Origin: Deltaproteobacteria bacterium
GTDB lineage: Bacteria > Desulfobacterota > Dissulfuribacteria > Dissulfuribacterales > UBA3076
DNA: 53,870 nucleotides
Reading direction: 5' to 3'
Assembly (NCBI GenBank): GCA_003194485.1
Contig: PQXD01000016.1
Location: forward strand, 1 to 53,870
The position numbers and the translations under genes are program-made. Shown in pieces: positions 9,966-30,440 of the stretch (its first letter is position 1; every line of letters starts with the position of its first letter). The notes below the pieces were generated by a model, which was not told where the DNA came from, made no database searches, and saw only the letters and a program-made list of their open reading frames with translations.

Positions 9966-10015
9966 AAATACTTACCTTTACTGATTTTCCGTCGCATTCA
10001 TCCAGGGACAATACG

Positions 10016-11428: not shown

Positions 11429-11626
11429 CTGTTTCCTATGGATGTAGCCGATCAAGGGTGGGATATTCTTTCAACATGCTCTCGCATCCAGAAAATCCCG
11501 CCCTTGATAGGTTGCCCATGGATTCAAGATATTTCAAGGGCTTTATTCTGCATCCTTTAACACCAAAGGCTGTCCGGTTTGGATTTATGTGTACCGAAGT
11601 CAATACGCCAGCAGCTTCGGCCTCTA

Positions 11627-14206: not shown

Positions 14207-14400
14207 CTTTCCTCCCTTTTATCTCCATACGCTGTTCGCTGTTGTACGGGGAGGCCGGTGTTGAGACCTTCACGGCCGGTCCCCGATGGACAAGCCGGGG
14301 AAGCGGGACAGCCGCTCATCAACACCTTGTTGAAACCAATATGGCGCTTATATTCCGGCTGATCGCAACCCGTTCCTCGACGGCTTGAAACGATCCTTAA

Positions 14401-14592
14401 GATACCGGCAGGTCTTCTGGCTCCCCCTCCCTTCCGGCGGCCTTCCCGTCCCGATTCCATCGAAACAGTGGCGCGATAGTGCCGAAAGGGTCCTCCTTGC
14501 ATTAACCGCAAGGGGCGGGGTTACAGCGGCGGGACCGCTCCCGTTTTTCACGGGATTCCCTATTAAGCCTCAACGGCGCCGGTATCCTCCTT
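14401..14592 (-). promoter_or_regulatory. Cobalamin riboswitch upstream of btuB
   Basis: Read on the minus strand, the segment has the hallmarks of the adenosylcobalamin aptamer in order: AATAGGGAATCCCGTG, CCCGCCGCTGTAA, GCCACTG, GGGAAGGC, and the B12 box AGCCAGAAGACCTGCCGG. About 190 bp separate the aptamer from the btuB start. No U-tailed hairpin stands out there, but GC-rich inverted stretches near 14258-14296 could sequester the ribosome site, so translational control is my guess. Confidence 0.95.
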
Positions 14593-14676
14593 TCTTTGCC
14601 GATATATGATTTTGATCAGGTTGTTACGGCATCACCTCCTTTCTTTTACGTATTTGTAAATGCCTTCGTCCCCATG

Positions 14677-15417
14677 TCAGTCCCTTGCCTGGTTGACGCA
14701 TTTTAGGGCCATGAAAAAGAACACCCCTCCGATTGCCGCCAGCAACGGGTATGAATAGTAGCCGGGTGTCATGCCGAAAGCCGTCTGCCGGATCGCCTTT
14801 GAGGCGTGGGTAAGCGGCAGCAGGCAAATGATTTTCTGTGCCCAGGCCGGAAGGCGGTCCACAGGAAAAAAAGTGCCCCCTAAAAAGGCCATGGGCGTGA
14901 TCACAAAGCTCGTGAACATCGCCTGATCTGCATGGGATTTCACCAGCATGGCAAGGCCCACGGCCAGGGACGCGAAAACAAAGCTGTTGAGCCCGACGGC
15001 CAGCCAGAAGAGCGGGTTATAGTAATTCAGCATCACATCGAAAAGCATGCCGAGGACTATGATCACGGCAACCGAAAGCAGGGCCCGGGTCATGCCTGCC
15101 AGGACTTCGCCGGCCACATAGGCGGCATTGCTGATGGGCGCGGCCTGGAATTCTTCAAAGATATGCCAGTAGAAACGCGCCACATTGATATCAGTGGAGA
15201 TGGCAAAGGCCTGGGTCATGCTGCTCATGGCCACCAGGCCCGGTATCAGAAATTCCGTATAGGTATGCCCGTCAAAGCTTGCCCCATCCCCCATGGCGTA
15301 TCCGAAGGCGATCAGATAGAGCAAAGGGGAGACCGCCATGCTCAGGATCTGCCGTTTGAGCCGGTGTTTCAGGATCAATATCTCGCGGAGATAGACTGCG
15401 GTAAAACCCCTCAGCAT
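14677..15417 (-). CDS. ABC-2 type exporter permease
   Basis: A 246-residue inner-membrane protein with about six hydrophobic segments, matching ABC-2 permeases of the DrrB/NodJ kind. Family features include an N-terminal LREILILKHRLKRQ amphipathic lead, FLIPGLVAMSSMTQAF, and FVITPMAFLGGTFFPVDRLPAWAQ in the second half. Its ATG overlaps the end of the ATPase gene by seven bases, so the two form one transporter. It closes the CobN/ChlI/ChlD operon. The substrate is unknown. A role in cobalt or corrinoid-intermediate handling is only suggested by position. Confidence 0.85.
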   Translation of the reverse strand: MLRGFTAVYLREILILKHRLKRQILSMAVSPLLYLIAFGYAMGDGASFDGHTYTEFLIPGLVAMSSMTQAFAISTDINVARFYWHIFEEFQAAPISNAAYVAGEVLAGMTRALLSVAVIIVLGMLFDVMLNYYNPLFWLAVGLNSFVFASLAVGLAMLVKSHADQAMFTSFVITPMAFLGGTFFPVDRLPAWAQKIICLLPLTHASKAIRQTAFGMTPGYYSYPLLAAIGGVFFFMALKCVNQARD

Positions 15418-16250
15418 TGGACCCTCTTTCCGGTGAGTGTTAGGAATGAATCCTCCAGGTTTACCCTCCGCAGGGTGTAACTCCCTTTTTGACCGGCAAT
15501 GAAGACGCCGGCGTCGTGACGGGTTTTGAAACAGACCGTCTCTATCTTGTCGTCATTTATCCGGTCAATGGCCCATGCGCCTGTCTGTGCCATTAATTCT
15601 GCAGGCGTATCGGTGGCAACAACCCTCCCTTCATCCAGAAAGGCCACCCGGTCGGCCAGGAATTCAGCCTCCTCGATGTAATGGGTGGTCAAAAATATAG
15701 TAGTGCCGGTATGCTGAATCCTTTTTATTAATCCCCAGATCCTCCTGCGGATTTGCGGATCAAGGCCCACCGTTGGCTCGTCTAAAAAGAGAATCCTGGG
15801 GGAATGGACCAGGGCCCTGGCAATCGTCAGCCTGCGTTTCATGCCGCCGGAAAGCTGTTTGACCAGATCATTTCTCCGGTCAATGAGATCAACATAGCTC
15901 AAGAGTTCGTCGATCTTTTTTCTCCTTTCTCGTGCGGCCATATGAAAAATCCTGCCGTGAATATCCAGATTTTCAAAAGTGGTGAGTTCCTGGTCCAGGT
16001 TGATGGACTGCATTACCATTCCGAATTCCCTTTTGGCCGCAAGGCCCTCTTTTTCGATATTGAAACCGTTCAGCCAGGCATTGCCTGCCGAACGCCGGGT
16101 GAGCCCGGTCAGGATCCGGATTGTGGTCGTTTTGCCGGCGCCGTTGGGGCCGAGATAGGCGAAAAGTTCCCCTTCCGGCACATGAAAATTGACACCTTTT
16201 AAGGCATGGATGCCCCTGTAGGATTTGCTCAAGTTTTCGACCCGTATCAT
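15411..16250 (-). CDS. ABC-2 type exporter ATPase
   Basis: A 279-residue nucleotide-binding subunit. Walker A is GPNGAGKTT (near 34-42), the signature is LSGGMKRR, Walker B is ILFLDEPTVGLDP and the H-loop is LTTHY. The C-terminal 60 residues form the extra domain common in DrrA/NatA-type exporters. It overlaps the upstream ChlI gene by four bases (ATGA) and its permease by seven, indicating tight coupling within the chelatase operon. Such an exporter after cobaltochelatase genes is unusual enough to note. Substrate not predictable. Confidence 0.9.
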   Translation of the reverse strand: MIRVENLSKSYRGIHALKGVNFHVPEGELFAYLGPNGAGKTTTIRILTGLTRRSAGNAWLNGFNIEKEGLAAKREFGMVMQSINLDQELTTFENLDIHGRIFHMAARERRKKIDELLSYVDLIDRRNDLVKQLSGGMKRRLTIARALVHSPRILFLDEPTVGLDPQIRRRIWGLIKRIQHTGTTIFLTTHYIEEAEFLADRVAFLDEGRVVATDTPAELMAQTGAWAIDRINDDKIETVCFKTRHDAGVFIAGQKGSYTLRRVNLEDSFLTLTGKRVQC

Positions 16251-17284
16251 CTTTTCGTCCGCATGCCCTTCACATCGCCTCCTATTTCCTGAAGCGGCTG
16301 GCGGCGAACGCGGTGGGGCAGGGCCAGTCCGGCGGCCGCTTCAATATCTTCAGGCATGACTTCCCGCCGGCCGTGATAGGCGGCCAGGGTTTTGGCTGTC
16401 TTCAAGATAATGATATCTCCCCGGTGACCGTCCACTCCCACGTCAAGACAATAGGAAGCGATTTCAAAAAGCAGCGTTCGTTCAACAGTGACCCTGGGGT
16501 AGAGTGCGATTGCCTGCTCGATTTTTTTGGCCAGCTCCTTCGAAGCCGGCTCCCACTCCCTGCAAAATCCAACGGGATCGGCATCAAAGCCGGTCCGCTG
16601 CTCCATGATCGCCACCCGGGCTTCAGGGTCCCGGATTCCCTCGATGAGAACGCACAGGCCGAACCGGTCCAGGAGTTGGGGCCTGAGCTCTCCTTCTTCC
16701 GGGTTCATGGTCCCCACCAGGATAAAACGGGCAGGGTGGGAAAATGAAACCCCCTCCCGCTCGATGGTGTTGACCCCCATGGCCGCGGAATCGAGCAGGA
16801 TATCCACCACGTGATCATCCAGCAGGTTCACCTCATCCACATAAAGGATACCCCGGTGCGCGGCCGCCAGGATACCGGGTTCAATTTGTTTTTCCCCTGT
16901 CTTCAGGGCATGCTCCAGGTCCAGAGTCCCCACCACCCGGTCCTCGGTAGCGCCTACCGGCAGCTCCACCACCCGCACCTTTCGTTTTACTGTTGCCGGC
17001 CGTCCTGCTTGAGAAATCTCTTCCTGGCCCACGGCGCGCATACACTCCAGGTACACATCGAATTCCTCATCCGGAGAGAGGTTAAACGGATCGTTTTCAA
17101 ACACCTCGATTTCCGGCAGGATATCCGCAAGTGCCCGGACCGCTGTGGATTTGGCCGTGCCCTTTTCCCCGCGGATCAGTACCCCGGAAAGTGTGGGGTT
17201 GATGATGTTCAATATAAGCGCGAGCTTCATCTTTTCCTGGCCTACAATGGCCGTAAACGGATAAATATGTTGCTTGTTTTTCAT
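16247..17284 (-). CDS. Magnesium-chelatase-like AAA+ ATPase, subunit I type
   Basis: A 345-residue AAA+ protein of the ChlI/BchI family. P-loop GEKGTAKST near 39-47, Walker B ILYVDEVNLLDDHVVD near 146, GTMNPEEGELRPQLLDRFGL sensor/arginine-finger region, and a C-terminal helical lid. In chelatases this subunit forms the hexamer that drives metal insertion by the large H/CobN subunit. It overlaps the fused ChlI-ChlD gene by four bases and follows cobN in the same operon, so I expect cobalt chelation with CobN. It is about half identical by eye to the first half of its neighbour, suggesting a duplication. Confidence 0.9.
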   Translation of the reverse strand: MKNKQHIYPFTAIVGQEKMKLALILNIINPTLSGVLIRGEKGTAKSTAVRALADILPEIEVFENDPFNLSPDEEFDVYLECMRAVGQEEISQAGRPATVKRKVRVVELPVGATEDRVVGTLDLEHALKTGEKQIEPGILAAAHRGILYVDEVNLLDDHVVDILLDSAAMGVNTIEREGVSFSHPARFILVGTMNPEEGELRPQLLDRFGLCVLIEGIRDPEARVAIMEQRTGFDADPVGFCREWEPASKELAKKIEQAIALYPRVTVERTLLFEIASYCLDVGVDGHRGDIIILKTAKTLAAYHGRREVMPEDIEAAAGLALPHRVRRQPLQEIGGDVKGMRTKR

Positions 17285-19299
17285 CGTCTTTCCTTGACAA
17301 TATTCACCAGTTGGTCGGCTTTGAGTTCTTCGATTTTGAAATACCGGGCATTGAAAACCCTGGCAAGCTGCTCTGCCAGGCCGAATGTAACAAGTCCTGT
17401 TTCTTCGGTATCCACCACGATATATATAACCCTCGGGTCGGCGGCCATTTTTGCTGCAAAGTCAAATGATTCTTCAACCGGTTTTTGGTCTCCCATGGCC
17501 ACGTTGCTCTTGCCGTCCGTAATGATGACCACAATGGGCCGGGCCGCGGGATCACGCAAAAGATGATTCCTGACCTGTTCGTGGGCCGCGGCAAGCCCTG
17601 CGGAAAGGGGAGTCCTGCCGCCCACCGGCATTTCCGCCAGCAGCTTGCCCGCCATTTCCACGGAAGATGTGGGCGGCAGGTTCAGATCCGCTCCATTTTG
17701 CCGAAAAGAGATCATGGCCACCTTGTCCCTTTTTTGATAAGCATCCAGGAGCAGGGACATGATTGCGCCCTTGGAGGCGGCCATCCTTCCCCTGGCGCCC
17801 ATGGAACCGCTGGCATCCACGACAAAGAGAAGGAAATTTCCAATCCGTTTTTCCCGGATCTTTTCCCGGATATCCTCTTTCTTCAAGACTACCGCCAGGC
17901 CGTTCTCCCCCTTTCTTTTGAGCTGATAAGGGGCCGCGGCCCGCAGGGTGGCGTCCAGGGCGATATCTCCGCTCCTGCTTCCAGGCATGCTCTTGATGTA
18001 GCGCCCCTGTTTCAGGGAAACACGGGTACGGGATCTCCGGCCGGAACCCCGCCGGTAAATCCGGTCCCGTGGGGAGACGATTTTTTTGACCGCAAAGGTG
18101 GATCCCACTTCAAAAATCTGCTCGGGAGATATCTTTTCATCAGGTTGCTCAACGCTATCCGTTTTATCTGCATCCCCGGGCTGATCTCCGGAAGGCCGTG
18201 ACCCTTCACCGGTCACGGCCTCCGGTTGCGCATCCGGCCTGTTGTCCGGTTTTTCCGTCTCCGGCGGCGGGTCCTGCTCACTCTTATTCTTATCTTCAGG
18301 CGGTTCTTCTTTGGGCTGATCAGGCTGTGGCGGGGGCGCCGCATCCCGTCTCCTATGGACGATGACAAAAGGCGCCACTTTTGCGATATCATCCGTGGTG
18401 ACTTCAAAGCGTTGCCGCAACGCCGCATGGGCCCTGGCCGCCTGTTCCATGACCAGGTCGGCCCGGTGGCCTGCCACGAGATTTTTCGTGCACAACTCGG
18501 AAATAAAGGTCCTCAGGTGTTTGGGCAGCCTGACTGCGTTTAAATGATCCCTTGCCGACAGAATACGTTCAGACGTCTGGGCGTTTTCCTTTTCAAACCC
18601 CTTCAGAAATTCTTTGGGATCGAGATCAAAGGACTCCCTCCTTTTCATCAACTCAACCCGTTGCTCGATATCGGTCTCCGCCTCGATATCCACGCAGAGG
18701 CCGAAACGGTCCAGGAACTGGGGCCTGAGCTCTCCTTCTTCCGGGTTCATGGTCCCCACCAGGATAAATGAGGCCGGGTGCCGAAACGAAATCCCCTCGC
18801 GCTCGATGCGGTTTTCTCCGGAAGCGGCCGCATCCAGGATGATGTCCACGATGTGGTCGTCTAAAAGGTTCACCTCATCCACATAAAGGATCGACCGGTT
18901 GGCCTCGGCCAGGAGTCCGGGGAGGACGGCGCGCTTGCCTTCCTTGACGGCCAGGCTGAAATCGATTCCACCCGCCACCCGGTCTTCCGTGGCGTTGAGC
19001 GGCAGGGTCAAGACCCGAATCCTCCGGCGCCGGATTTCACGGACAGGCGCTTTTCCCTTGCACCTTTCACACATCCCGTCTTCATCGTCGGGATCGCAAA
19101 AATAGGGACATCCAGCAACCACCCTGATTTCGGGCAGCAGGGCAGCCAGGGCCCGGACGGTCGTCGATTTGGCCGTGCCCTTTTCTCCCCGGATCAGGAC
19201 GCCTCCTATCTTCGGGTTAACCGCATTGAGCAGCAATGCGAGTTTTAGTTCCTCCTGACCGACAATGGCTGCAAATGGATATATTTTTTTAAACATCAT
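17281..19299 (-). CDS. Fused ChlI-ChlD chelatase subunit (AAA+ and VWA)
   Basis: A 672-residue protein. The N-terminal AAA+ module has GEKGTAKSTT and ILYVDEVNLLDD. It contains a four-cysteine insert (CPYFCDPDDEDGMCERC, near 85-101) that could bind a metal. After the AAA+ lid comes a Pro/Glu/Asp-rich linker (about 330-410) and a C-terminal von Willebrand A domain with the MIDAS motif DASGSMG. The arrangement matches short cobaltochelatase or magnesium-chelatase D subunits in corrin-making bacteria, replacing CobS/CobT with CobN. The start MMFKK has two ATGs and I cannot choose between them. An outer-membrane receptor scrap separates it from cobN. Confidence 0.9.
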   Translation of the reverse strand: MMFKKIYPFAAIVGQEELKLALLLNAVNPKIGGVLIRGEKGTAKSTTVRALAALLPEIRVVAGCPYFCDPDDEDGMCERCKGKAPVREIRRRRIRVLTLPLNATEDRVAGGIDFSLAVKEGKRAVLPGLLAEANRSILYVDEVNLLDDHIVDIILDAAASGENRIEREGISFRHPASFILVGTMNPEEGELRPQFLDRFGLCVDIEAETDIEQRVELMKRRESFDLDPKEFLKGFEKENAQTSERILSARDHLNAVRLPKHLRTFISELCTKNLVAGHRADLVMEQAARAHAALRQRFEVTTDDIAKVAPFVIVHRRRDAAPPPQPDQPKEEPPEDKNKSEQDPPPETEKPDNRPDAQPEAVTGEGSRPSGDQPGDADKTDSVEQPDEKISPEQIFEVGSTFAVKKIVSPRDRIYRRGSGRRSRTRVSLKQGRYIKSMPGSRSGDIALDATLRAAAPYQLKRKGENGLAVVLKKEDIREKIREKRIGNFLLFVVDASGSMGARGRMAASKGAIMSLLLDAYQKRDKVAMISFRQNGADLNLPPTSSVEMAGKLLAEMPVGGRTPLSAGLAAAHEQVRNHLLRDPAARPIVVIITDGKSNVAMGDQKPVEESFDFAAKMAADPRVIYIVVDTEETGLVTFGLAEQLARVFNARYFKIEELKADQLVNIVKERR

Positions 19300-19311
19300 C
19301 TCTATTGGTAT

Positions 19312-19460
19312 TTAAAACTCGTAGTTGAAGCCGCAAATCCAGGTTCGCGGCGGCGCCAGCCAGCCGTCTCCGTAACGATATGTCTTATCCCCGATATTTT
19401 TGACTTCTCCGAAGAACTCCGGAAGACCGAACCCGCCTCCCGTCCAGGACGCCCCGTTTC
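19312..19460 (-). pseudogene. C-terminal scrap of a second TonB-dependent receptor
   Basis: Translation of this gap between cobN and the chelatase subunit gives GLPEFFGEVKNIGDKTYRYG, then GDGWLAPPRTW and ends GFNYEF. Terminal-strand features (VKNIGDKTYRY and a final aromatic Phe before the stop at 19312-19314) are those of a TonB receptor barrel. No start or plug domain remains. It suggests an entire receptor gene once stood here in the corrinoid operon and was deleted down to its last 48 or so codons. It is not in frame with cobN. Confidence 0.65.
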
Positions 19461-22400
19461 CTATTCCGTAAGCCCTTCAATCTCACCTTCCATTTCCAGG
19501 TATGCCTCGCGCAACTCGTTTTCCATGTCCGGGTCAGCGTTCCACATCCCCCGGCTGATCGCCTCCAGCAGCTTATCTAAGATGTTTTGCAGGGCGTAGG
19601 GGTTTACTTCCCTCATCCATTCCTGCATGGCAGGATCAAGGGCGAACTTTTCCGCGATTTTCTTGTACATCCAGTCATCGATCACTTCTGCCGTGGCGTC
19701 CCAGCCGAGGACCACGTCCATCATGTGGGAGATGTCCCCGGCGCCTTTGTAGCCGTGGCGTTTCATTCCCTCCAGCCACTTGGGATTGACAAGGCGGGAG
19801 CGCAGCACGTGTTTGGCCTTCTCAAAGGTGGTACGCATCTTCACCCGCCTGGGGTCGGCGCTGTCACCTACCAGGGCGAAGGGAAGCTCGCCGCGCACGG
19901 TCTTGGCCGCTACGATAAGGCCGCCGTAGTAGTTATAAAAGTCGGTGCACGACATCATGTCGTATTCTCTGGAATCCTCGTTTTTGACCGTCACATCCAT
20001 GCGGGAAAGAAGGTTGCGGAACGCGGCCGGCTTCTGCCTGCCGTAACTTCCCTTGCCATATGCGTGAGCACTATATCGGATGTAGTTGTTGCCCAGATCT
20101 TCCTGGGTCTTCCAGTTTTTCGACTCAATCAGTTCGGAGACCCCGGCCCCATATGTGCCCGGCGGGCAGCCGAAGACCCGGAACGTGGCCTCCCGCATGG
20201 CCTCTTCCCCGGCCATGCCCTCTTTCATATAGCCTTCCGCGTCCCGCAGGACATTGCGCCGCAGGATATTGGCATCCGGCGGTTCGTTTAACGCGGCCAC
20301 TATTCGCGCCGCCTCGTCGATCCGCTCAACCAGGTTCGGAAACGAATCCCGGAAAAATCCGGAGATGCGCGGCACCACATCGAGTCGGGGCCGTCCCAGT
20401 TCAGATGCCGGAATTACCTCAAGACCGGTCACGTCTCCGCTTCCCTTGGCCCACACGGGCTTTACGCCCATGAGGTAGTAAATCTCGGCGATATCATCTC
20501 CCTTGGTGCGCATGGTGGAGCCGCCCCAAACGATAATTCCGACGCCTTCAGGATATTTCCCCGTCTCTTCCAGGCACCTTGAAATCAGGGCTTCTCCCAG
20601 CTTCTTGCCTACTTCCCAGGCCCCCGGGGTCGGGATTTTTTGGGGATCGACGGAATAAAAATTCCTGCCCGTGGGCAGGATATCGGCCTGCCCCCGGCTG
20701 GGCGCGCCCGACGGCCCGGGCAGAACAAACCCGCCGTCGAACCCGGTAAGGCTTGAGTCGATTTCATCGGTGACCCTCCGGATATTGGGCGTCAATATTT
20801 CACAGATGTAGTGCAAGACAGCAGCGACATTCTTGTCCCTGCGGCCCAGATGGGATTCAACAACGGCATCAATGCCGGCGGCATCAAACCGGCTTTCTTC
20901 CAGCGCTTTCACCATGGCCAACCCCTTTTCATGGGCGCTTTGAATAATTTGTCCACCGGTTTTGTTCTGAAAGCGCAGCAGAGATTTGCCTTTATTTTCC
21001 AAAAGATCATCATAGTCATAGCCGAGAGCATTCAGAGCCGATTCGCGCAGCGAAGGAGTGCCCCCGTTGGGCAACCTGGTAAGCTGAACGAGAAATTCCA
21101 CAAGCCGGTCTTCCTCCGGCGATTTGCCCATAATGTGCAGCCCGTCATTAATCATGGTGTCTGCGAGATCGGCCAGGTAGCCGTGGAGTTTTTCGAGGAG
21201 TGCGTCGAAATCGGCAAACGCGTCTTTTTCACTTATTTCTAAATCCTTATGCAGGTCCGCTGCCTTCAGTGCCTCCCAGATCATGGGACGCAGGACCGGC
21301 AGCTTCCCTGGATCCTCCCGGCCCGCATCCGCATAGTCTTTTAAAAGATTCTCCACCTTTGCCAGGTCTTCGTAGAGGTCGGCGTTGGTGAACGCCGGGG
21401 TGAGGTGATCGATGATGCAGCAATAGGAACGGCGCTTGGCCTGAGTGCCTTCACTGGGGTCGTTGATGATATAAGGGTAAACATTCGGCAGGTCCATGAT
21501 GGCAAGATCGGGATAGCACGCATCAGACAGGCCCAGGGCCTTGCCCGGCAACCATTCCAGGGAACCATGTTTGCCAACGTGCATCACCGCGTCCGCCCTG
21601 AAAACATCCTTGATCCACCGGTAATGGGCCAGATAGTGGTGGGGCGGGGAGAGATAAAAATCATGATAGATTTTGTCGATATTTTCGAAATAACCGCGGG
21701 GGGGCTGGATGGTGATGAAGATATTACCGTTGATCAACCCGGCGAAATGCATTTTTCCTTCATGCACGAAAAGGTCTCCGGGGACCTCGCCCCAGTCCGC
21801 GGTCATCTTTTCGCGGATGGGTGCGGGCAATGCCTCGTGCCATGGCCCAAACATCTCTTCACCGGCATGGGCCGCGGCCCTTTGGGCCATACGTTCCGGG
21901 GTCAGCCAGCGCTGATCACAGGTCATGCGGTCGAGCAACTCCCTGGCCAGCTCATCGCCGCTTTCATAAATCCTGTCGATCCAATAGCCCTCTTCTTTCA
22001 TCCGGTCGAGAAGGAGTTTTACGCTCTCAAAGCTGTCAAGGCCCGCAGCGCAGCCGATGCGGTCGTTTCTCGGCGGGTAGTGATGAAAAACAATAGCGAT
22101 CTTTTTGTCTTTATTGCTGATTTTCCGCAGCCTGGCCCAATTGAGCGACAGGGAAACCATCTTTTTGACCCGTTCGGGTATGGGTACATATCTGGCAAGC
22201 AGCGCGCCCGTGACCGGATCAATGTCCTCCTGTTCTCGCGTGGCCACAGGAACGGTAATCAGGGCACCGTCAAATTCAGGCTGGGCCGCCGAAAAGGAGA
22301 CATCCATGGTGGAGACCCCCTGAAGGCCCTCCTTCCACTCGGCATAGGAATTCATGGTGACCATGGCCTGGATGAACGGGACATTCAGCTTCGGCAGGAG

Positions 22401-23234
22401 GTCTTTGTACTCAGGGGCCGCCAGGGTCAGAGAAAACATCATCGGGCTGATCAGGACATCAATCCGCGGCCTGCCGTTATCCATGAAGAAATTATCGACC
22501 ACATAGTCGGCGCCGCGGTTTCCCCGCTCGGCATCCTTATATCTGAAATGAAATACACAGATGACGTTGGCCCCCTGGAGTTCAATTTCACGGATAACGG
22601 CGTCTATATAGGCCAGATTGTCATTGAGCCAGTAGGATTGATAGAACCAGAGACCCGCGGTGATCTTTTCCGGGTCCACCTTTTGTTTCAGATAATCTTT
22701 TACGTCTGGAATACCGGGGATATCTGGGTGATAGATCCCTTCCTGGGGAAGCCTTTGCGGGGGATCGCACGGCACTTCCTCGTCAAACAGCAGATTGTAA
22801 AGATAGATGAGCATATTCTGGAAATTGACGCGCCCGCCGTGCATAAGGTAACGGTTCAACGTGTCCCATCTGTCCGTGCCGAATGCGTCGTCATACTCCC
22901 GGGCAGCCAAAAGGCCGTCTTCATCGCTCCCCTGGGGATGAATATGAAAACAGGGCGTTTTCTCCCCATGGTCTTTCTTTTCCGTAACAGCTTTCGCCAG
23001 GGCATCAAAGGCCGGACAGGATTCCCTGCCGCCGTGGAGGACAACAAGGACGGCATCGCAATTGAGTGCGTCCCGGACAAATGCCTCTATTCTCGATTCA
23101 TCAAAAAGCTGGCTCCGGGTCCTGGCCACGATCCTGATCTTTCCGCCCCCTTCCTGATATTGCCGCACGCCGGCGCTTAAGGAGGGGATCTCCATGGAAT
23201 GGGCGCTGAAGTAGCAAAGTGTAAAAGGTCTCAT
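19461..23234 (-). CDS. cobN: Cobaltochelatase large subunit CobN
   Basis: About 1257 residues, the size of CobN. It inserts Co2+ into hydrogenobyrinic acid a,c-diamide (or a related ring) using energy from the ChlI/ChlD complex. Family segments seen: VLVVLHGGRES near the N-terminus, DAVMHVGKHGSLEWLPGKALGLS (conserved HxGxHG-type metal or ring-binding block), DLPNVYPYIINDPSEGTQAKRRS, and EVGKKLGEALISRCLEETGKYPEGVGIIVWGGSTMRTKGDD. I start at ATG 23234, which overlaps the radical SAM stop (ATGA) behind AAGGAG; the longer reading to 23330 runs through that gene. Long antisense frames are its shadows. Confidence 0.95.
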   Translation of the reverse strand: MRPFTLCYFSAHSMEIPSLSAGVRQYQEGGGKIRIVARTRSQLFDESRIEAFVRDALNCDAVLVVLHGGRESCPAFDALAKAVTEKKDHGEKTPCFHIHPQGSDEDGLLAAREYDDAFGTDRWDTLNRYLMHGGRVNFQNMLIYLYNLLFDEEVPCDPPQRLPQEGIYHPDIPGIPDVKDYLKQKVDPEKITAGLWFYQSYWLNDNLAYIDAVIREIELQGANVICVFHFRYKDAERGNRGADYVVDNFFMDNGRPRIDVLISPMMFSLTLAAPEYKDLLPKLNVPFIQAMVTMNSYAEWKEGLQGVSTMDVSFSAAQPEFDGALITVPVATREQEDIDPVTGALLARYVPIPERVKKMVSLSLNWARLRKISNKDKKIAIVFHHYPPRNDRIGCAAGLDSFESVKLLLDRMKEEGYWIDRIYESGDELARELLDRMTCDQRWLTPERMAQRAAAHAGEEMFGPWHEALPAPIREKMTADWGEVPGDLFVHEGKMHFAGLINGNIFITIQPPRGYFENIDKIYHDFYLSPPHHYLAHYRWIKDVFRADAVMHVGKHGSLEWLPGKALGLSDACYPDLAIMDLPNVYPYIINDPSEGTQAKRRSYCCIIDHLTPAFTNADLYEDLAKVENLLKDYADAGREDPGKLPVLRPMIWEALKAADLHKDLEISEKDAFADFDALLEKLHGYLADLADTMINDGLHIMGKSPEEDRLVEFLVQLTRLPNGGTPSLRESALNALGYDYDDLLENKGKSLLRFQNKTGGQIIQSAHEKGLAMVKALEESRFDAAGIDAVVESHLGRRDKNVAAVLHYICEILTPNIRRVTDEIDSSLTGFDGGFVLPGPSGAPSRGQADILPTGRNFYSVDPQKIPTPGAWEVGKKLGEALISRCLEETGKYPEGVGIIVWGGSTMRTKGDDIAEIYYLMGVKPVWAKGSGDVTGLEVIPASELGRPRLDVVPRISGFFRDSFPNLVERIDEAARIVAALNEPPDANILRRNVLRDAEGYMKEGMAGEEAMREATFRVFGCPPGTYGAGVSELIESKNWKTQEDLGNNYIRYSAHAYGKGSYGRQKPAAFRNLLSRMDVTVKNEDSREYDMMSCTDFYNYYGGLIVAAKTVRGELPFALVGDSADPRRVKMRTTFEKAKHVLRSRLVNPKWLEGMKRHGYKGAGDISHMMDVVLGWDATAEVIDDWMYKKIAEKFALDPAMQEWMREVNPYALQNILDKLLEAISRGMWNADPDMENELREAYLEMEGEIEGLTE

Positions 23235-24325
23235 TGCAGACTCCTTGTGTATTCTTGCCATAGCGTCTGATACATGACACAGGCCAGCCGACTGTTTTGG
23301 ATGCCGTTGTAATATAGCCTGCTTGGACAATCACCGGGACAGTATGACGCCAGCAGGCAGCCCCCGCACTGCTCCCCGCGCAGGGTCAATCCGCTTAATG
23401 CCGTTATTTTCGACGTATCCGGAGCGTCCACGGTGCCGCAGGCAAACGCCGGATCACCAGCGGTCTGGGAGCAGGGGAAAAGGGTGCCATCCGGCAAAAC
23501 AGCCAGACTTTCGCCGCGGCAGGCGTGACAATAGTCACTGGCTCCGCGTACGCGGCGCCCTTTTATCCGTTCCCATTCCCGGAGCTGTATGGGGACCGAG
23601 CGTCTCCTGTTTATCCGGCGAAGTGTTTCCGTAAGACGGATAACACCGGTTTTAAGCGCCTCCGGCAAAGGGGCAGCCACTGTCTTTGATGCCGCAGCGC
23701 GCCCCCTGTTGACCAGCATGTCCAGCCCCAACCCTCTGCATCCGGGGAATGCGGCCAGAAACAGGGCCAGGTCATGGAGATGTTTTACATTTTGCCGGGT
23801 TACCACGGCGGTTACCCGGAATTCCATATTCGCATCGGAAAGGAGTTTCATGCCCCGAATCGTCTCTGCCGCCCTGCCCCGTAATTTCTCCTGAACCGCC
23901 GGTGTTCCGTCCAGGCTGATTCCCACCTGCACATCATACCGTTTCAAATACTTGATAAGCGCGCGGTCCAGCAGGGTGCCGTTGGTCTGGACGGCGATGG
24001 TGGCGGGCCGGCCGACCGAACGTATCTGTGACGACGTCCATTCGATCATTTCCGGTACCAATGCCGGTTCCCCGCCGGTCATCTGGACGTGGAACGCTTT
24101 GCCCGAAGCGGCGGCAAACCGCAGGCTTTTCCCAGCCGTTTTCCGTGACATTGACTGCTTTGCTTCCGGTTCTCCCCGGTAGCAGTAAAGACAGCGAAGA
24201 TTGCATTCATCCGTAAGCGCCAGAATAAGGTATCTGGTCGCCGGGGTTATCTGTTTCCGCACAGTGCTGATTATTTTTCTCCTCTTTCCATGGAACCGGT
24301 CACAGGGTGCTTCTTTTCCCAACAT
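23231..24325 (-). CDS. Radical SAM/SPASM protein in the CobN operon
   Basis: About 364 residues from ATG 24325. The radical SAM cluster motif is CNLRCLYC; MTGGEPAL binds SAM. The C-terminal SPASM region has several cysteines (CHACRGES, LFPCSQ, CGGCLLASYCPGDCPSRLYYNG) likely to hold auxiliary Fe-S clusters. Proteins with this layout modify peptides or act on small substrates; some act in cofactor synthesis. Its position between the ABC importer and cobN, with an ATGA overlap to cobN, points to the corrinoid pathway, but the reaction is unknown. The first 10 or so codons come from the left arm of the inverted-repeat element, so the start is uncertain. Confidence 0.8.
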   Translation of the reverse strand: MLGKEAPCDRFHGKRRKIISTVRKQITPATRYLILALTDECNLRCLYCYRGEPEAKQSMSRKTAGKSLRFAAASGKAFHVQMTGGEPALVPEMIEWTSSQIRSVGRPATIAVQTNGTLLDRALIKYLKRYDVQVGISLDGTPAVQEKLRGRAAETIRGMKLLSDANMEFRVTAVVTRQNVKHLHDLALFLAAFPGCRGLGLDMLVNRGRAAASKTVAAPLPEALKTGVIRLTETLRRINRRRSVPIQLREWERIKGRRVRGASDYCHACRGESLAVLPDGTLFPCSQTAGDPAFACGTVDAPDTSKITALSGLTLRGEQCGGCLLASYCPGDCPSRLYYNGIQNSRLACVMYQTLWQEYTRSLQ

Positions 24326-24480
24326 GCTCTCGCCCCCTGTTTTCTGAGGCTTTTGCAGCACGTGACCCTCCCCGTTCTCCTCCGCTGTGCTCCGGAGCCG
24401 GGGTCTCCCATGCCGCAAAAGCCAAGAAAACCTGCGGGGCTAACGCAAATCGTTTTCAAAAGAAGCACCCTGTGACCGGT
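24295..24480. repeat. Long palindromic element with perfect 23-bp inverted ends
   Basis: Positions 24295-24317 and 24458-24480 are exact reverse complements over 23 bp (ACCGGTCACAGGGTGCTTC and on). The inner sequence continues the symmetry imperfectly (GTTTTCTGAGGCTTTTGC against its partner near 24409-24437), so the whole 186 bp can fold into one hairpin. It supplies the last 14 codons of the BtuD-like gene and the first codons of the radical SAM gene. Size and shape suggest a miniature inverted-repeat element, but I see only one copy here and no target duplication. Confidence 0.75.
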
Positions 24481-25702
24481 TATCTTCTAAATATATCTCC
24501 ATCCTGTGCAACAGCCGGACTTCACTTTGGCAGATAAGCAGTCTGCCTGAATCCGTCTGCAGCAGTTGCCGGGCCTCTTCTTCTTTTCTTAAGGTAAAAG
24601 CAGGTTTGCCCTGTTCTATGGCCTCTGTCATAAGCCGAAGGTTCATCCGGTTCAGCGTCCCTACCGCAAATCCCGCGTCGATGACGCAAACAGCCTGCCG
24701 GACCAGGGGGAGCGCCTTATTTATCTCGTTTTGGGTAATTTTTCCCATAGGATACTGAGTGACGCATTTTGCGCCGAGGGCCTTTGCCACGTGATAGTCG
24801 AGGTCGTTTCCATGAAGGACCCCGGTGGTAATGGCAAATCCCCGCTTGGCCAGCAGCCGGTAGAGAGCTGTGCCGCTGCCCATGCCGCCGGCAACAAAAA
24901 CCGTTCCTCTATGGCCGTTGCCTTTGATCTCAATGCTCCCCAGCGCCGGATTGAAGCTCGCCCCGTCAAAATCGTAAAGGGCGGAGACGCTTTCTTCATT
25001 AAGCGTATCTTCCGGCGGGCCCCAGGCGACGATGCCGCCGTCCTTGACCAGAAGGACGCGATCGGACACCTTGGCGGCCATGTCCACATCGTGCAGGGAG
25101 GCCGCCACTGTGATACCTTTTTCCCGACATAGCCGCTGCAAAATGGTTATCACCTCCATGCGGTGCCTTAAATCCAGGTGCAGCGTGGGTTCATCCAGCA
25201 GGATCACCCGTGGCTCCTGGGCCAGGGCCCGGGCCAGAAGTACTTTCTGCTTCTCGCCGTCGCTCAGGGTGTCCAGTTGTCGGGCGGCCAGGTCCCGGGC
25301 ATGAACCAGGGCCAGGGAATCGAGGACTATTTTTTCATCAGCCCGTGTCAGTCTTCCTAAAAATCCCGTATGCGGGTAGCGGCCCAGGGCGGCAAACTCG
25401 AACACGGAAAACAGGCCGGGAGAGACCCGCTCCGTTAATACCACCGATATTATCCGGGCCAGATCCGCCTGGGGGAATCCCTGCAATTGGGTTTCATTGA
25501 TGAGGACCGTTCCCTTGATGGGCGCAAGCAGCCCGGCCAGCGTCCTTAAAAGGGTGGTTTTGCCGGCGCCGTTGGGGCCAAGCAGGGAGATAAACCGGCC
25601 TTTGCCCAAGAAAAAATTGACGGCCTTAAGAACAACTTCTGCGTCATAACCGACGGAGAGATCTTTTGTCGTCAGAACCGTATCAATTTGAGTATTTGTC
25701 AT
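24440..25702 (-). CDS. Corrinoid ABC importer ATPase with extra C-terminal domain (BtuD-like)
   Basis: 420 residues from ATG 25702, which overlaps the permease stop (ATGA). Residues 1-260 are a FecE/BtuD-type ATPase: Walker A GPNGAGKTT, signature LSDGE, Walker B VILLDEPTLHLDLRH, and ASLHDVD. A further 150 residues follow (GTVFVAGGMGSGTALYRLLA, GVLHGNDLDYHVAKALGAK, CVIDAGFAVGTLNRMNL). This Rossmann-like extension also occurs on some archaeal and anaerobe corrinoid transporter ATPases; its role is unsettled. The last 14 residues are encoded by the inverted-repeat element, so the natural C-terminus may have been altered. An upstream extension to 25978 is a shadow over the permease gene. Confidence 0.88.
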   Translation of the reverse strand: MTNTQIDTVLTTKDLSVGYDAEVVLKAVNFFLGKGRFISLLGPNGAGKTTLLRTLAGLLAPIKGTVLINETQLQGFPQADLARIISVVLTERVSPGLFSVFEFAALGRYPHTGFLGRLTRADEKIVLDSLALVHARDLAARQLDTLSDGEKQKVLLARALAQEPRVILLDEPTLHLDLRHRMEVITILQRLCREKGITVAASLHDVDMAAKVSDRVLLVKDGGIVAWGPPEDTLNEESVSALYDFDGASFNPALGSIEIKGNGHRGTVFVAGGMGSGTALYRLLAKRGFAITTGVLHGNDLDYHVAKALGAKCVTQYPMGKITQNEINKALPLVRQAVCVIDAGFAVGTLNRMNLRLMTEAIEQGKPAFTLRKEEEARQLLQTDSGRLLICQSEVRLLHRMEIYLEDNRSQGASFENDLR

Positions 25703-26727
25703 ACCGACACCCTCTGTTTCATCAACAGGCTGATGACAAGGGGCGCACCGAACATGGCGGTAACGGCGCTCACCGGCAGCTCCACCGGCGAAAAAAGCAG
25801 GCGGGCGATAAGATCGCACAGACTGGTCACGATGGCGCCTAAAAAAACAACTCCGGGGATCAGTATCCGATTGTCCGATGTTGCGAAAAAAAGACGCGTC
25901 ATGTGCGGCACGGCCAGGCCGATAAAGGCCACCGGCCCGGCCATGGCCGTCACCATGCCGGCAAGAGCGCAGGCGCACAAAATAATGAGAAATCTGAACA
26001 GCCGGATATTCACCCCCATGGTGGATGCGTATGCCTCCCCCAGGAGAAAGGCATTCAATGGTTTGCTGAGTCCATAGACAATGATCAGGATCAAGCCGCC
26101 CAGGAAAAACAGGATTTGAATTTCACTCCATTTAAACCCTGCAAAACTGCCGAGCTGCCAGAGCACAAAACCCTTGATTTTTTCCTGTCTGGCAAAGGCC
26201 ACAAGGACGCTGGTAACGGCATGACACAGATACCCCATCATCAGACCCACAATGAGCAGGGTGATCACGTTTTTGACCTTTGCGGCAATGGCCAGCACCA
26301 CGGCCATGGTCGCATAAGCGCCGGCAAGGGCGGAAAGAGTGGTTAAAAAAGGGGCCAGAGCGGTGAATCCCAGGCTCAGTGTGGTCAGCATCACAATAGA
26401 GACCGTCAACGTTGCGCCCGAGGAGATCCCCAGGATAAAAGGGCCGACAATGGGATTGCGGAAAAACACCTGGAGCAACAGGCCGGCCACGGCCAGATAT
26501 GCGCCGCCCATGACTGTGGCCACGGCTCTTGGAATGCGGATGTTCCATACGATGAAACCGCTTGTGGTCCCCACGTCATGACTGCTGATAATGCGCAGCA
26601 GATCGGGTAAAGATATGTCAATGGACCCAGCGATGATATTAACGGCCACAGAGACCGGCAAAACCGCGGAAAACAGGGCGAAAAGCAGGTAGTGTCTCTT
26701 TGCGTCGATGATGCGTTTTTCTTTCAT
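25699..26727 (-). CDS. Corrinoid/metal-chelate ABC importer permease (BtuC/FecCD)
   Basis: A 342-residue FecCD-family permease with about ten membrane segments. Family blocks: SLPDLLRIIS near 37-46, WNIRIPRAVATVMGGAYLAVAGLLLQ, NPIVGPFILGISSGATL, LWQLGSFAGFKWSEIQ and GPVAFIGLAVPHMTRLFF, the last being the coupling-loop region that contacts the ATPase. ATG 26727 overlaps the end of the binding-protein gene (ATGA), and its own stop overlaps the ATPase start, so the three are a single translation-coupled importer. The B12 riboswitch upstream suggests a corrinoid substrate, though iron-chelate homologues look alike. Confidence 0.92.
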   Translation of the reverse strand: MKEKRIIDAKRHYLLFALFSAVLPVSVAVNIIAGSIDISLPDLLRIISSHDVGTTSGFIVWNIRIPRAVATVMGGAYLAVAGLLLQVFFRNPIVGPFILGISSGATLTVSIVMLTTLSLGFTALAPFLTTLSALAGAYATMAVVLAIAAKVKNVITLLIVGLMMGYLCHAVTSVLVAFARQEKIKGFVLWQLGSFAGFKWSEIQILFFLGGLILIIVYGLSKPLNAFLLGEAYASTMGVNIRLFRFLIILCACALAGMVTAMAGPVAFIGLAVPHMTRLFFATSDNRILIPGVVFLGAIVTSLCDLIARLLFSPVELPVSAVTAMFGAPLVISLLMKQRVSV

Positions 26728-27854
26728 TTCAGCATGGCCTGTGGAGGATTATCCGTATCCGGAAGCCTGGTAAAAAATTTCATACGATACTCAGGGAAAC
26801 GTCCCGGGTTTAAAACGGCAGCCACCTCTTCGATGATTTCATCCAGCCGGTCAGCGGATTGCGCATAACATGGCAGGGGAGAAAAGACCTTGCCGTGTGT
26901 AAGTGGGCCGATACCTTTCAGCAGGGGATTGATCCGGGCCAGGGCCGCCTTGGATGAGGCCCCTGTTTCATAGGTCCTGTATGTAAAAAGTATGTCCGCT
27001 TTTTTGCCGCTGGAAAGAAACCTTTCCAGTGTAATTTCAATTCAGGACCCGCCTGCTATGTCGCTGAACAGGTAATCCCCCCCGGCCAGATTCACCATCT
27101 CCGCAACCCAGGAATTCCCCGGCTCCACCAGCACCCTTTTTTCATAAATATCTCCCCAGATCACTTTGGGCCGCACATCAGGAGAGAGATTAAGGCTATA
27201 TATCCGCTTGATGGCGCTGGACACCCTGGCAACATATTTATCCGCCTCCTTTTCCCTGTTGAAAAAAAGGGCCAGGAACTGGACGAACCGCATGCGCGTA
27301 TCAAGGTTCATGGCTTCGGCAGTGGTCGTGATCACCCCCGGGATATCCAGCTCCATAATTCCGGAAATCACAGACGGGTCCCAGGTAAGCACCAGGTCGG
27401 GCTCGATGGCCTTGAGTCTTTCAAAATCAACCGCGCTGGATTCGCCGATGTAAGTGACCCGTCCGTTTTCCATTCCTTTTTTGACTTCCTCGATGGTCCA
27501 GTACTCCTTTTTCCTGGTGACGCCCACGAGCACCTTGTCCAGGATGCCCAGGGCCTTGAGCAGCGCCACGTTATACCCGGAATAGACCACCACGCGGCGG
27601 ACCGGTATTTCAATGATCTGATGTCTTTCATATCCGTCCGGCGGCTTTTGTCCTCTGGGCACCAGAACCAGGGTTCTTCCCGCACCGTCCCGGATCTCCT
27701 TGCAGTTGTCAGGCAGTGTTTTTACTGAAAATTCACCGATACTCCTGAACGATGTCCTGCCGCCTGCTTCCTGACGGCAGGCTGCAAGCAGGAACACGCC
27801 TAACGCGGCGATACACAGCTTTATGAGTGCCCGGTGAGAATGGAATTTATACAC
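26724..27854 (-). CDS. Corrinoid-binding lipoprotein (BtuF-like) with in-frame UGA, possible selenoprotein
   Basis: Up to 376 residues if the UGA at 27044-27042 is read through. GTG 27854 follows AAGGAAAA and overlaps the ResB-like stop. Signal peptide ends in a lipobox (LGVFLLAACR, Cys at about 26). The periplasmic-binding domain has RRVVVYSGYNVALLKALG, VTYIGESSAVDFERLKAIEPDLVL and WVAEMVNLAGGDYLFSDIAGGS. The UGA comes next, and the frame goes on with IEITLERFLSSGKKADILFTY and a normal C-terminal lobe to 26724, where it overlaps the permease start. Without read-through the second lobe is lost. An 8-bp hairpin sits 12 nt after the UGA. Alternatives are a nonsense mutation or a sequencing error; relatives often have Ser here (TCA to TGA is one change). 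Confidence 0.75.
27010..27044 (-). promoter_or_regulatory. Candidate bacterial SECIS hairpin after in-frame UGA
   Basis: On the minus strand, UGA (27044-27042) is followed by 12 nt and then CUGGAAAG-GUUU-CUUUCCAG (27029-27010), a perfect 8-bp stem with a 4-nt loop starting with G. Known bacterial SECIS elements lie inside the coding region, with the apical loop about 16-37 nt after the UGA and a G among the first loop positions. Here the loop begins 20 nt after the UGA. This fits the model, but the folding rules are loose and no selA/selB genes are in the window. Confidence 0.5.
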
Positions 27855-28671
27855 GGCGTTTTCCTTCTTTCGCCTGTAATAAGAACCACTGATAGAGATA
27901 CATGCACAGTCCCACAATAAAGAGCACGGTCCCGGTAAAACAGAACATCATTCCAGGATCGTCTTTGATGATCAGATTAATGTAAGGCCGGCGTTTCATG
28001 CCGGTCTTATATTGGGGGGCAAAATCCTTAAGATGAAAGCTCAGGCCCTTGAATCTGAAAGGGGCGTTGATGCCGATGGCCTTCCACACCTCCTTTTGCC
28101 CCGCGGTCAAGCGCAGGGCTGCCTGGACGTTGATGGCCCGGTTATTGAGAAATTTCAGCCGGCTTCCCTGATAATATTGGACATCCAACGATCCCAGTTG
28201 CACTTGAATCTCCGAATGCGGGATCCGGACACTTTGTCCCTGAACGATAATTATGTCCGGATATGTCCTGGCATAGAGATAACTGACAAGGTAGCCGATC
28301 AGGATCACAATCAAGGCATAATGCATGATGTGGGGTGAAAATTTCAAAATAAACCGCAGGCGGCCTGTAAAACGGGAACGGAACTTCGCCAGGGTGAAAA
28401 CCCGGTTGGTAGTACAGACAAAGGTGTTTACAGCCAGGAGAAACAGCAGAATTAACAGTCCGAAAAACCACACTGTATGGCCTGCGTAAGTTATCCCGTA
28501 AGTCTTGATCCATTCAATAAGTCCCAAGTCATTGAGCGGTTTAAACAGGTTCTCGTGTCCTTTAAGCCCCAGGTAGCCGCCTGCCAGATCAACAACCAGC
28601 AGCAAGAGAACCACCGTGGTCAGACGGACGCTTCCCAAGACCTTCCATATTTTTTTCACGATGTCTTTCAT
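27847..28671 (-). CDS. ResB/CcsB-like cytochrome c assembly protein
   Basis: A 274-residue membrane protein. Segments near 13-33 (SVRLTTVVLLLLVVDLAGGYLG), 66-86, 115-135 and a final one near 240-262 resemble ResB (Ccs1). Between the last two lies a periplasmic domain with IRIPHSEIQVQLGSLDVQYYQG and FRFKGLSFHLKDFAP, shorter than in standard ResB (about 450 residues). ResB with CcsA exports heme and attaches it to apocytochrome c. Here the pair heads a B12-riboswitch operon, so it may act on a corrinoid or support a special heme protein. That is inference. It overlaps both neighbours by a few bases. Confidence 0.75.
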   Translation of the reverse strand: MKDIVKKIWKVLGSVRLTTVVLLLLVVDLAGGYLGLKGHENLFKPLNDLGLIEWIKTYGITYAGHTVWFFGLLILLFLLAVNTFVCTTNRVFTLAKFRSRFTGRLRFILKFSPHIMHYALIVILIGYLVSYLYARTYPDIIIVQGQSVRIPHSEIQVQLGSLDVQYYQGSRLKFLNNRAINVQAALRLTAGQKEVWKAIGINAPFRFKGLSFHLKDFAPQYKTGMKRRPYINLIIKDDPGMMFCFTGTVLFIVGLCMYLYQWFLLQAKEGKRRV

Positions 28672-29456
28672 AGAAACTTCATCAAAATACCCGTGTCGGG
28701 AAGCCGGAATCCCCCCAGCTCAGGACAACAATTAAAAGTCAAGATCAACACCGCGCCGAAAACGGCAGCATATGTCCTCCTTTCGACATCCCAGCTTTTC
28801 AGCAGGTGGAGATGCAGAAAACACCCATAGTAAAACCAGGTGGCCGTGGTCATGGTGATGGCTGCGTCATCCCAGACCACCGGACTTCCCCAGCTGAGAT
28901 AGGACCATATCTCTCCGGAAAACATGGAGAAGGTCCAGAAGCCAAACCCCCAGACAATCCAGGAGGCAGCCCAGCTCCTGTTTCTCAAAACCGCCTGTTT
29001 TCTTGATCTGCCCTTCTGACGGATATGATCAAGCGCATGGATGCCGGCGATCAAAAAGCAGGACTTGCCAATAATGCCTGACAACAAAAAGAGGTGGGAG
29101 AAGATGGTTTTGGATTTTAGGAAAGGGAGATAAAAGTCGTTGGGGAAAAAGGCCGCTGCCAGCGACAATAGGCATATCAAAGCCACGAGCATGTTCCATC
29201 CCGCCCGCTTTTGCCATATTGTCTTCAGGGACAGGATGCCGATAAAAAGCGGCAGGAAAAACGGGCCCTGGAACATGGGCATCAGGGGCCAGGAAAAATA
29301 ATAACGGCCGGCATCCGACAAGAAGTTGGCGAAAAGGCCGATGCCGAATATACATCGAAACAGAAGTGCCCTTTTGCCCTGCAAAAAAATAGACAGAAAC
29401 CCGCTCAAAAGATAAAAGGATACTGCCACATAAAACATGTCGCGCGGTAAAAACAT
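28668..29456 (-). CDS. CcsA/ResC-like cytochrome c assembly protein
   Basis: A 262-residue polytopic protein, about eight membrane spans. The key segment WGSPVVWDDAAITMTTATWFYYGCFLHLHLL is a variant of the WWD heme-handling motif (usual WGxxWxWD) of CcsA/CcmC/CcmF, with one Trp-rich position changed. YLSGF, FLSDAGRYYFSWPLMPMF and HLFLLSGIIGKSCFLIAGIHALDH follow the CcsA pattern, including His residues that ligate heme. It is the first gene behind the B12 riboswitch and its terminator, and it overlaps the ResB-like gene by four bases. The altered motif leaves open whether heme or another tetrapyrrole is carried. Confidence 0.75.
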   Translation of the reverse strand: MFLPRDMFYVAVSFYLLSGFLSIFLQGKRALLFRCIFGIGLFANFLSDAGRYYFSWPLMPMFQGPFFLPLFIGILSLKTIWQKRAGWNMLVALICLLSLAAAFFPNDFYLPFLKSKTIFSHLFLLSGIIGKSCFLIAGIHALDHIRQKGRSRKQAVLRNRSWAASWIVWGFGFWTFSMFSGEIWSYLSWGSPVVWDDAAITMTTATWFYYGCFLHLHLLKSWDVERRTYAAVFGAVLILTFNCCPELGGFRLPDTGILMKFL

Positions 29457-29538: not shown

Positions 29539-29604
29539 CCCTTTTTTTATCCGCAGGACCACACAGGTAAGCGCTTGTCCACGACGCTTGCCTCAATATA
29601 TTAT

Positions 29605-29792
29605 TCCCGGCAGGTCTTCTGGCTTCCCCGCCCCTTTAGCGACCTTCCCATCCCGGTTCACCGGAACAGTGGCACATGAATGCTAAAAGGGTTCCCTTTT
29701 TATTAATGAAAAAGGGCAGGGTCACAGCGGCGGGCCCGCTCCCGACTTTCACGGGATTCCCTATTAAGCCCATGAGGGCACCGAATTTCCTT
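29605..29792 (-). promoter_or_regulatory. Cobalamin riboswitch ahead of the CcsA/ResB-Btu-CobN operon
   Basis: The minus strand shows the aptamer core: AATAGGGAATCCCGTGAAAG, CCCGCCGCTGTGA, GCCACTG, GGGAAGGTCGC and the B12 box AGCCAGAAGACCTGCCGGG. It is a close relative of the riboswitch at 14401-14592. Together with the terminator at 29497-29538 it forms a complete transcription-attenuation leader for the operon that runs down to 14677. Confidence 0.95.
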
Positions 29793-30440
29793 TATCCGAA
29801 AGCGGGTGCCATTGTCAAGAAAAAAATATCGAAATGAACCCAAAGTTTCTCCAGCAAGGCCCCCAGCTTATCCCTCCCCACTTCTGGATCGCGATTTTGC
29901 ACTTCCGCCCACTCCTATAGCCTGTCCATGACATGTCCGGAGTCGTAAATATTCGGTGAACCCGTGGTCCACTGTGGAAGTTGCCATCCGTGCCCTGCCG
30001 CAGGAGCGGTTTGCCTTTTGCAGGGTTTCAACCGCGGGCCGGATTGCACTGCCTCTCCGGTCTGCGATGAGTGAGCTTTGAAACCCGGAAAAAGGTAACC
30101 GCTTCAAGGCAGGATATAACGGGTTCACCGGATATTTACCCGGAGTCAATGATTTCCTTAGCCTTTTCAAGGCGTTCCTATAAATAATCAGGCAGGCATC
30201 CCTCGGAAGAGATGCCCGGAAAAGGGCAATGCTTTCAAAACAGACTCGCTATGGGGTTTTGAAATTGTCATATAAGGAAGAATGATATATGAAAGTAAGA
30301 ACCAATTTAAAAATTAGGCGATTGTGAATATGCTGATCAGCGAAAAAATGCATACTGAGTATCCATCCTTGATAAATATGTAAAGCGGTTTTTATCTATA
30401 CTAATTTACCGAATATTTAGTAACTTCTCATTGGACCACC
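29793..30440. other. Intergenic region between divergent transcripts, holding the MITE
   Basis: It should contain promoters for the minus-strand B12 operon and the plus-strand glycosyltransferase operon. Apart from the MITE, the stretch 30148-30440 is AT-rich with no convincing gene. I could not assign -35/-10 boxes with confidence. Confidence 0.4.
29945..30139. repeat. 195-bp palindromic MITE, copy 1, with 8-bp target duplication
   Basis: The ends GTAAATATTCGGTGAACCCG and its near reverse complement (one mismatch) define a 195-bp element. The interior is also largely self-complementary (GCGGTTTGCCTTTTGCAGGG against GCGGTTACC...CGGGTTTC). CCGGAGTC occurs directly outside both ends (29937-29944 and 30140-30147), which looks like an 8-bp target-site duplication. 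A second copy of identical length lies at 35112-35306. No transposase for it is in the window. Confidence 0.88.

Follow-up and report, generated by a model that had tools for sequence, protein, structure and literature searches.

Selenocysteine or cysteine at a predicted corrin-cavity position in a BtuF-like family of ABC importer lipoproteins

The locus under study belongs to the genome of a bacterium of sulfate-reducer type, from the Dissulfuribacterales (Desulfobacterota), and lies on contig PQXD01000016.1 of assembly GCA_003194485.1. The window, that is the whole stretch of DNA analysed, covers 53,870 nucleotides. Its minus strand carries, behind a cobalamin riboswitch, genes for two cytochrome c assembly-like membrane proteins, for the substrate-binding protein, permease and ATPase of an ABC importer, and for chelatase subunits (Table 1). 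The gene of interest encodes a BtuF-like substrate-binding lipoprotein, the lipobox LAAC being directly readable at its N terminus. The frame starts with the GTG at 27854 and ends at a UGA stop at 26726-26724, with a single internal UGA at 27044-27042 (-) and 105 codons between the two. Its 5′ end overlaps the stop of the ResB-like gene and its own stop sits in an ATGA that provides a 4-base overlap with the ATG of the permease gene. The first-pass annotation of this DNA had described one UGA in this frame, a continuation of about 105 codons and the 4-base permease overlap, and all three are found as it stated. The Pfam model Peripla_BP_2 (cut-off, 27.5 bits) matches the read-through protein with 69 bits and the part preceding the UGA alone with 54 bits. 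Gene callers would end the protein at the UGA and the last 105 residues would be lost.

Table 1. Features of the riboswitch-headed operon and of its surroundings in the window.
Feature	Position	Strand	Remarks
Cobalamin riboswitch heading the operon	29592..29800	(-)	RF00174, 82.3 bits
CcsA-like (cytochrome c assembly) membrane protein	28668..29456	(-)	Upstream of the binding-protein gene in 53/55 testable relatives
ResB-like membrane protein	27847..28671	(-)	Upstream of the binding-protein gene in 53/55 testable relatives
BtuF-like substrate-binding lipoprotein gene	26724..27854	(-)	GTG start, lipobox LAAC, Pfam Peripla_BP_2
In-frame UGA, almost certainly read as selenocysteine	27042..27044	(-)	Residue 272, numbering from 27857; Cys/UGA-aligned in 68 members
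Predicted bacterial SECIS hairpin	27010..27029	(-)	GUUU loop 20 nt past the UGA, stem of 8 bp
FecCD/BtuC-type permease	25699..26727	(-)	
BtuD-like ABC ATPase	24440..25702	(-)	Corrinoid ABC transporter ATPase is the top NCBIfam match, scoring under the cut-off
Radical SAM/SPASM protein, start uncertain	23231..24418	(-)	In a minority of relatives
CobN-type chelatase large subunit	19461..23330	(-)	Above TIGR02257 cut-off
ChlD/CobT-like chelatase AAA+VWA subunit	17281..19299	(-)	
ChlI/CobS-like chelatase AAA subunit	16247..17284	(-)	
Second cobalamin riboswitch, before the TonB receptor gene	14390..14598	(-)	96.3 bits
TonB-dependent outer-membrane receptor, probably for corrinoids	12176..14206	(-)	Behind its own cobalamin riboswitch

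Homologues of the protein are found in other genera. A first search, over 148 related genomes, gave three with UGA and four with Cys at the aligned codon. A wider scan of the genomes of 84,980 species gave 68 genes, in which the column holds Cys in 54 cases and UGA in 14, and never another residue; Cys or Sec is absent at this position solely in two more distant paralogues (L018 and L019). One of the 14 UGA genes (L022) comes from the contig of the window itself, in its public version, and two others (L037 and L082) are closely related. Most of the 13 other UGA loci are from separate species, representing several families, and one of them (L070) belongs to a named, cultured strain, Dethiosulfatarculus sandiegensis SPR. 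Among the Cys genes, L034 is that of Desulfogranum japonicum, likewise in culture. The alignment of homologues that had been proposed as a check thus returned only Cys or UGA, and the accompanying warning that relatives often have Ser at this position proved wrong for the BtuF-like family, where Ser occurs in none of the 68 genes. The residue at position -3 relative to Sec/Cys is Gly in 68/68 members and that at +3 is Ile or Val; neither CxxU, UxxC nor any other redox motif surrounds the Sec/Cys in the family. A search of plasmids found only distant relatives of the protein. In a tblastn sweep of the window and of the UGA loci, no second UGA aligned as widely with Cys was found among the other genes of the operon, and in the window itself no further UGA/Cys column was found.

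Seen in one genome, a frame interrupted by nothing but one UGA would suggest a nonsense mutation, a pseudogene or a sequencing error, and errors do occur in MAG assemblies. The protein would then end at residue 271, the remainder being a decaying or misread sequence. However, the codon is also UGA in the 13 other loci, including that of the cultured isolate. Furthermore, pairwise dN/dS values past the UGA are 0.06-0.12 in all computable pairs and do not exceed the values upstream, and the hairpin described below is conserved in the UGA genes only. With such dN/dS values, the post-UGA part of the protein must be translated and needed. An accident of mutation or sequencing is therefore extremely improbable. 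The particular case of a Ser codon turned into a stop by a TCA to TGA point mutation, against which the first-pass annotation had cautioned, is rejected because of the same downstream dN/dS values, of the 13 other UGA genes and of a column that is never Ser. A reassignment of UGA to another amino acid in this organism, for instance Trp as in code 4, would account for the readthrough itself and has nothing else in its favour. It is at variance with homologues carrying Cys, not Trp, with the UGA at which the BtuF-like gene itself stops, and with the full Sec machinery of the genome, and is rejected as well.

Downstream from the UGA, after 12 nt, comes the hairpin CUGGAAAG-GUUU-CUUUCCAG, in which CUGGAAAG (27029-27022) and CUUUCCAG (27017-27010) form a perfect 8-bp stem closed by a GUUU loop (27021-27018). 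Published limits for bacterial SECIS elements are a loop of 3-9 nt, a stem of 4-16 bp, a G within loop positions 1-2, a distance of 16-37 nt from the UGA and an MFE of at most -7.5 kcal/mol (PMC13188914). The hairpin falls within all of them, with a loop of 4 nt, a stem of 8 bp, a G in first position, a distance of 20 nt and an MFE of -11.7 kcal/mol, and the geometry claimed by the first-pass annotation is thereby borne out. Dinucleotide shuffles have a mean MFE of -5.9 kcal/mol (sd 2.3; z -2.5) and 4 of 200 are as good, so that the folding energy of the window's hairpin by itself is only moderate evidence for a SECIS element.

The comparison of UGA and Cys genes is stronger evidence for the hairpin than are covariation counts. 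In the 14 UGA genes, the stem register has all eight pairs in 11, seven in two and six in one, whereas in the 54 Cys genes the same register peaks at 4-5 pairs (Mann-Whitney p 1.6e-8); these pairing counts are inflated by kinship among the sequences, and Sec and Cys genes differ in adjacent amino acids too (Ser versus Tyr in FLS/FLY). The loop is GUUU or GUUC in every UGA gene and opens with C, A, G or U in the Cys genes. When synonymous codons are shuffled with the amino acids held fixed, the mean z is -1.30 for UGA genes versus 0.00 for Cys genes. Compensatory change is seen at two stem pairs, from AU to GC at one and from GC to AU at the other. Pairing falls from 96% to 42-66% once the partner strand is shifted by 1-3 columns. 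Of 500 shuffles, 4 reach the covariation score, and pairs changed on both sides are not unusually numerous; covariation counts by themselves give modest support. The hairpin is thus kept among the UGA homologues, as had been proposed for verification, with some compensatory change; it is weaker in L085 and L023 than in the other UGA genes.

The genome of the window has what is needed to decode UGA. The four genes selA, selB, selC and selD, for which a search had been suggested, are all present: SelA matches with 536 bits, SelB with 357 bits across the full model, and tRNA-Sec, with anticodon UCA, with 75 bits. The SelD frame (C5:26704-27630) contains one in-frame UGA, and this SelD is a selenoprotein too. 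SelA is found in 10 of the 13 other UGA-carrying genomes versus 32 of the 37 Cys-carrying genomes tested; its presence fails to tell Sec carriers from Cys carriers and is necessary evidence only. Among the three UGA genomes with no SelA match, two have a UGA-containing SelD, one of them together with a full SelB, and the third (L085) has SelB-like fragments only; most of the UGA- and Cys-carrying genomes are fragmented MAGs, in which the absence of a gene is weak evidence. A further open frame of 51 codons in the window's genome (C5:35376-35513, L021) resembles the C-terminal wing domain of SelB and is separate from the full selB gene.

The homologues, the hairpin and the Sec machinery all support the selenoprotein substrate-binding protein that the first-pass annotation had postulated: the BtuF-like protein is almost certainly a selenoprotein. 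Judging from these comparisons, it is close to certain that the UGA would be decoded as Sec by SelB and tRNA-Sec, with the help of the downstream hairpin. On a tree computed with the trait column masked, about five changes between Sec and Cys are needed, at least three of them forced by well-supported branches. Sec occupies a clade of nine rows and the L037/L082 pair; it also occurs in L070, next to Cys sisters, and in the L079-L086 group, mixed with Cys. Repeated exchange of this kind is what a functional Sec/Cys pair typically shows. Its recurrence in one operon offers natural pairs for measuring the contribution of selenium.

Where the Sec would be located in the protein can be considered from a structural model. 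AlphaFold2, run with 35 family rows, predicts a class III substrate-binding protein fold with a pLDDT of 91.4 and a pTM of 0.85, and the Sec is in a loop right before a short strand of the C-lobe (273-275). Siderophore- and heme-binding proteins of class III are the PDB neighbours of the model. In E. coli BtuF, the corrin cavity is lined by Y50, W66, W85, F162, F168 and W196, and the beta face of the corrin ring points to the C-lobe (PMC5269720). Both MAFFT and hhalign align the Sec on W196 of E. coli BtuF, with about 22% identity over 178 columns, and in an independent profile match the Sec column is occupied by a Trp from PDB 4ovk. The W196 position is Cys or Sec in 63/63 family members and W85 is kept in 62/63. 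In this low-identity alignment W85 is the sole clearly kept cavity residue of the six, Y50, W66 and F162 aligning, in part not safely, with other residues and F168 with a gap. The alignments support Sec/Cys in place of BtuF W196, on the C-lobe side of the corrin cavity, and the earlier suggestion that the Sec would be near the ligand gains support from its place in the cobalamin cavity of BtuF (PMC5269720).

The nature of the ligand may be approached through the operon. The order CcsA-like, ResB-like, binding protein, permease and ATPase is nearly invariant among relatives (permease in 61/62, ATPase in 62/62), and a cobalamin riboswitch is found upstream in 13 of 14 relatives scanned; in L023 the copy is cut by the contig end and L026 has none. 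CobN lies within 5 kb downstream in 31 of 46 relatives, and CobF, CbiC and CobB are encoded further along the same neighbourhood. Because the operon combines a cobalamin riboswitch with FecCD/BtuC, BtuD-like and CobN proteins, the ligand is probably a corrinoid. With the corrin-synthesis genes and the conserved W85 of BtuF added, we are rather confident of this assignment, which is drawn from gene context, the identity to BtuF being about 22% and fold and profile searches favouring siderophore and heme binders no less than BtuF. As to the other genes of the region, the CobN, ChlD and ChlI genes (16247-23330) together with CobF, CbiC and CobB (8560-11455), all on the minus strand, hint that cobalt is inserted late or that corrins are remodelled in this presumably anaerobic lineage. 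Between the ATPase and CobN genes sits that of the radical SAM/SPASM protein (23231-24418, (-)), which 11 of 46 relatives also have at up to 5 kb downstream. For the TonB receptor (12176-14598 region), heme-receptor models outscore B12-receptor models, all being below cut-off.

A ligand other than a corrinoid, such as heme, another metal-tetrapyrrole or a siderophore, with Sec/Cys as an axial iron ligand, has a small probability in our estimate. HmuS, a CobN relative of gut Bacteroidota, is reported to take iron out of heme (PMC12583661), and on this account heme stays among the rival ligands. The best match of the TonB receptor to the TIGR01785 heme receptors, below cut-off, the heme and siderophore binders among the fold and profile matches, and the handling of heme by relatives of CcsA and ResB also go in this direction. 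Nevertheless, cobalamin riboswitches head the operon in the window and in 13/14 relatives, CobN passes the CobN cut-off with CobF, CbiC and CobB nearby, and the best model of the ATPase is a corrinoid ATPase. Our best overall reading of the locus, which we regard as likely, is that of a Sec-containing, membrane-anchored substrate-binding protein of a riboswitch-controlled corrinoid importer, with the Sec at the position of BtuF W196.

What the selenium would do there is more speculative. Comparison among family members shows that a chalcogen is needed at this position and that the need is conserved, and a column that is always Sec or Cys suggests direct contact of the Se or S atom with the B12 cobalt in the course of uptake. 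At the pH of the periplasm, a selenolate would be stronger both as a nucleophile and as a ligand. Located at the W196 site, the Sec/Cys side chain would touch the corrin ring from its upper (beta) side, where it might ligate the cobalt or attack its upper ligand. Incoming cyano-, alkyl- or sulfur-ligated corrinoids would in this way be bound tightly and stripped before transport. We put this role forward tentatively as the most likely one, by analogy with Cys80 of BtuM. In a real selenoprotein, the Sec/Cys could also be a redox thiol that makes no contact with the ligand metal, for instance by passing electrons to or from the CcsA-like/ResB-like pair or by serving as a guard against oxidation. 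Most selenoproteins are indeed redox proteins (PMC13188914), and the pair adjoins the gene in 53/55 relatives, related proteins performing periplasmic heme and thiol chemistry. On the other side, no CxxU- or UxxC-type motif accompanies the residue, -3 being Gly in all 68 members and +3 Ile or Val, and the Sec stands in for a residue of the ligand cavity. Such a redox role appears doubtful. Coming back to cobalt ligation, the CcsA-like/ResB-like pair might supply electrons or handle the tetrapyrrole for the Sec/Cys step, which we consider unlikely. The boldest reading, of low probability in our estimate, is that a Se-Co bond on the upper face and ligand removal in the periplasm, with a dedicated CcsA/ResB-like pair backing electron supply or ligand exchange, would define a new, substrate-modifying type of ABC importer.

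Several known systems can be compared. With E. coli BtuF (PDB 1N2Z/1N4A), the protein shares the class III fold, BtuC/BtuD-type partners, the predicted corrinoid ligand and W85. It differs by the Sec/Cys in place of W196, an extra N-terminal region of about 60 residues, its lipoprotein nature and the low identity already mentioned. A selenoprotein with the motif CxxU, named 'cobalamin-binding protein BtuF' (cd01144; MDE0719563.1), appears in reviews (PMC9312934, PMC13188914) and likewise places Sec in a BtuF-class binding protein. That the present protein is this listed one is improbable: fold family and predicted ligand are the same (PMC9312934, PMC13188914), but the invariant Gly at -3 makes the motif GxxU, not CxxU, in 68/68 members. 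Any overlap between the family and the CxxU entry is likewise unlikely. In SaoB and SaoX (Haft and Gwadz 2023), which the reviews list too, Sec is likewise part of the substrate-binding protein of an ABC transporter, with a supposed contact to a metal compound. Their motifs, CUxxT and UxP, are different, and in NCBIfam (E 0.001) no model, including NF040727 (SaoB) and NF040735 (SaoX), matches the BtuF-like protein. A precedent for the role proposed here is BtuM, an ECF-like B12 transporter in which Cys80 ligates cobalt and removes cyanide (PMC6072759); in both, a chalcogen side chain would ligate cobalt and strip the other axial ligand. However, BtuM is an unrelated membrane protein that uses sulfur only, as a lower-face ligand, whereas the BtuF-like protein is a substrate-binding protein with a predicted upper-face contact. 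According to the BtuM study, no other B12-binding protein whose structure was then known showed thiolate-cobalt ligation (PMC6072759).

A literature search found no paper on this family, and we regard the BtuF-like Sec/Cys proteins as a selenoprotein family that is new and for which the proposed use of Sec is unusual. Desulfobacterota gain a selenoprotein family that has no NCBIfam model. Since selenium is placed in the predicted binding site of a B12 importer, ligation of cobalt by a selenolate or thiolate becomes a testable question. Two observations on the neighbouring genes may be added. The CcsA-like/ResB-like pair (27847-29456, (-)) is a fixed part of the B12-riboswitch operon, and no paper on such a pair in corrinoid uptake was found in the literature. 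Finally, a pair of ABC-2 type exporter genes (14677-16250, (-)) adjoins the chelatase genes in the window, as it does in several relatives.
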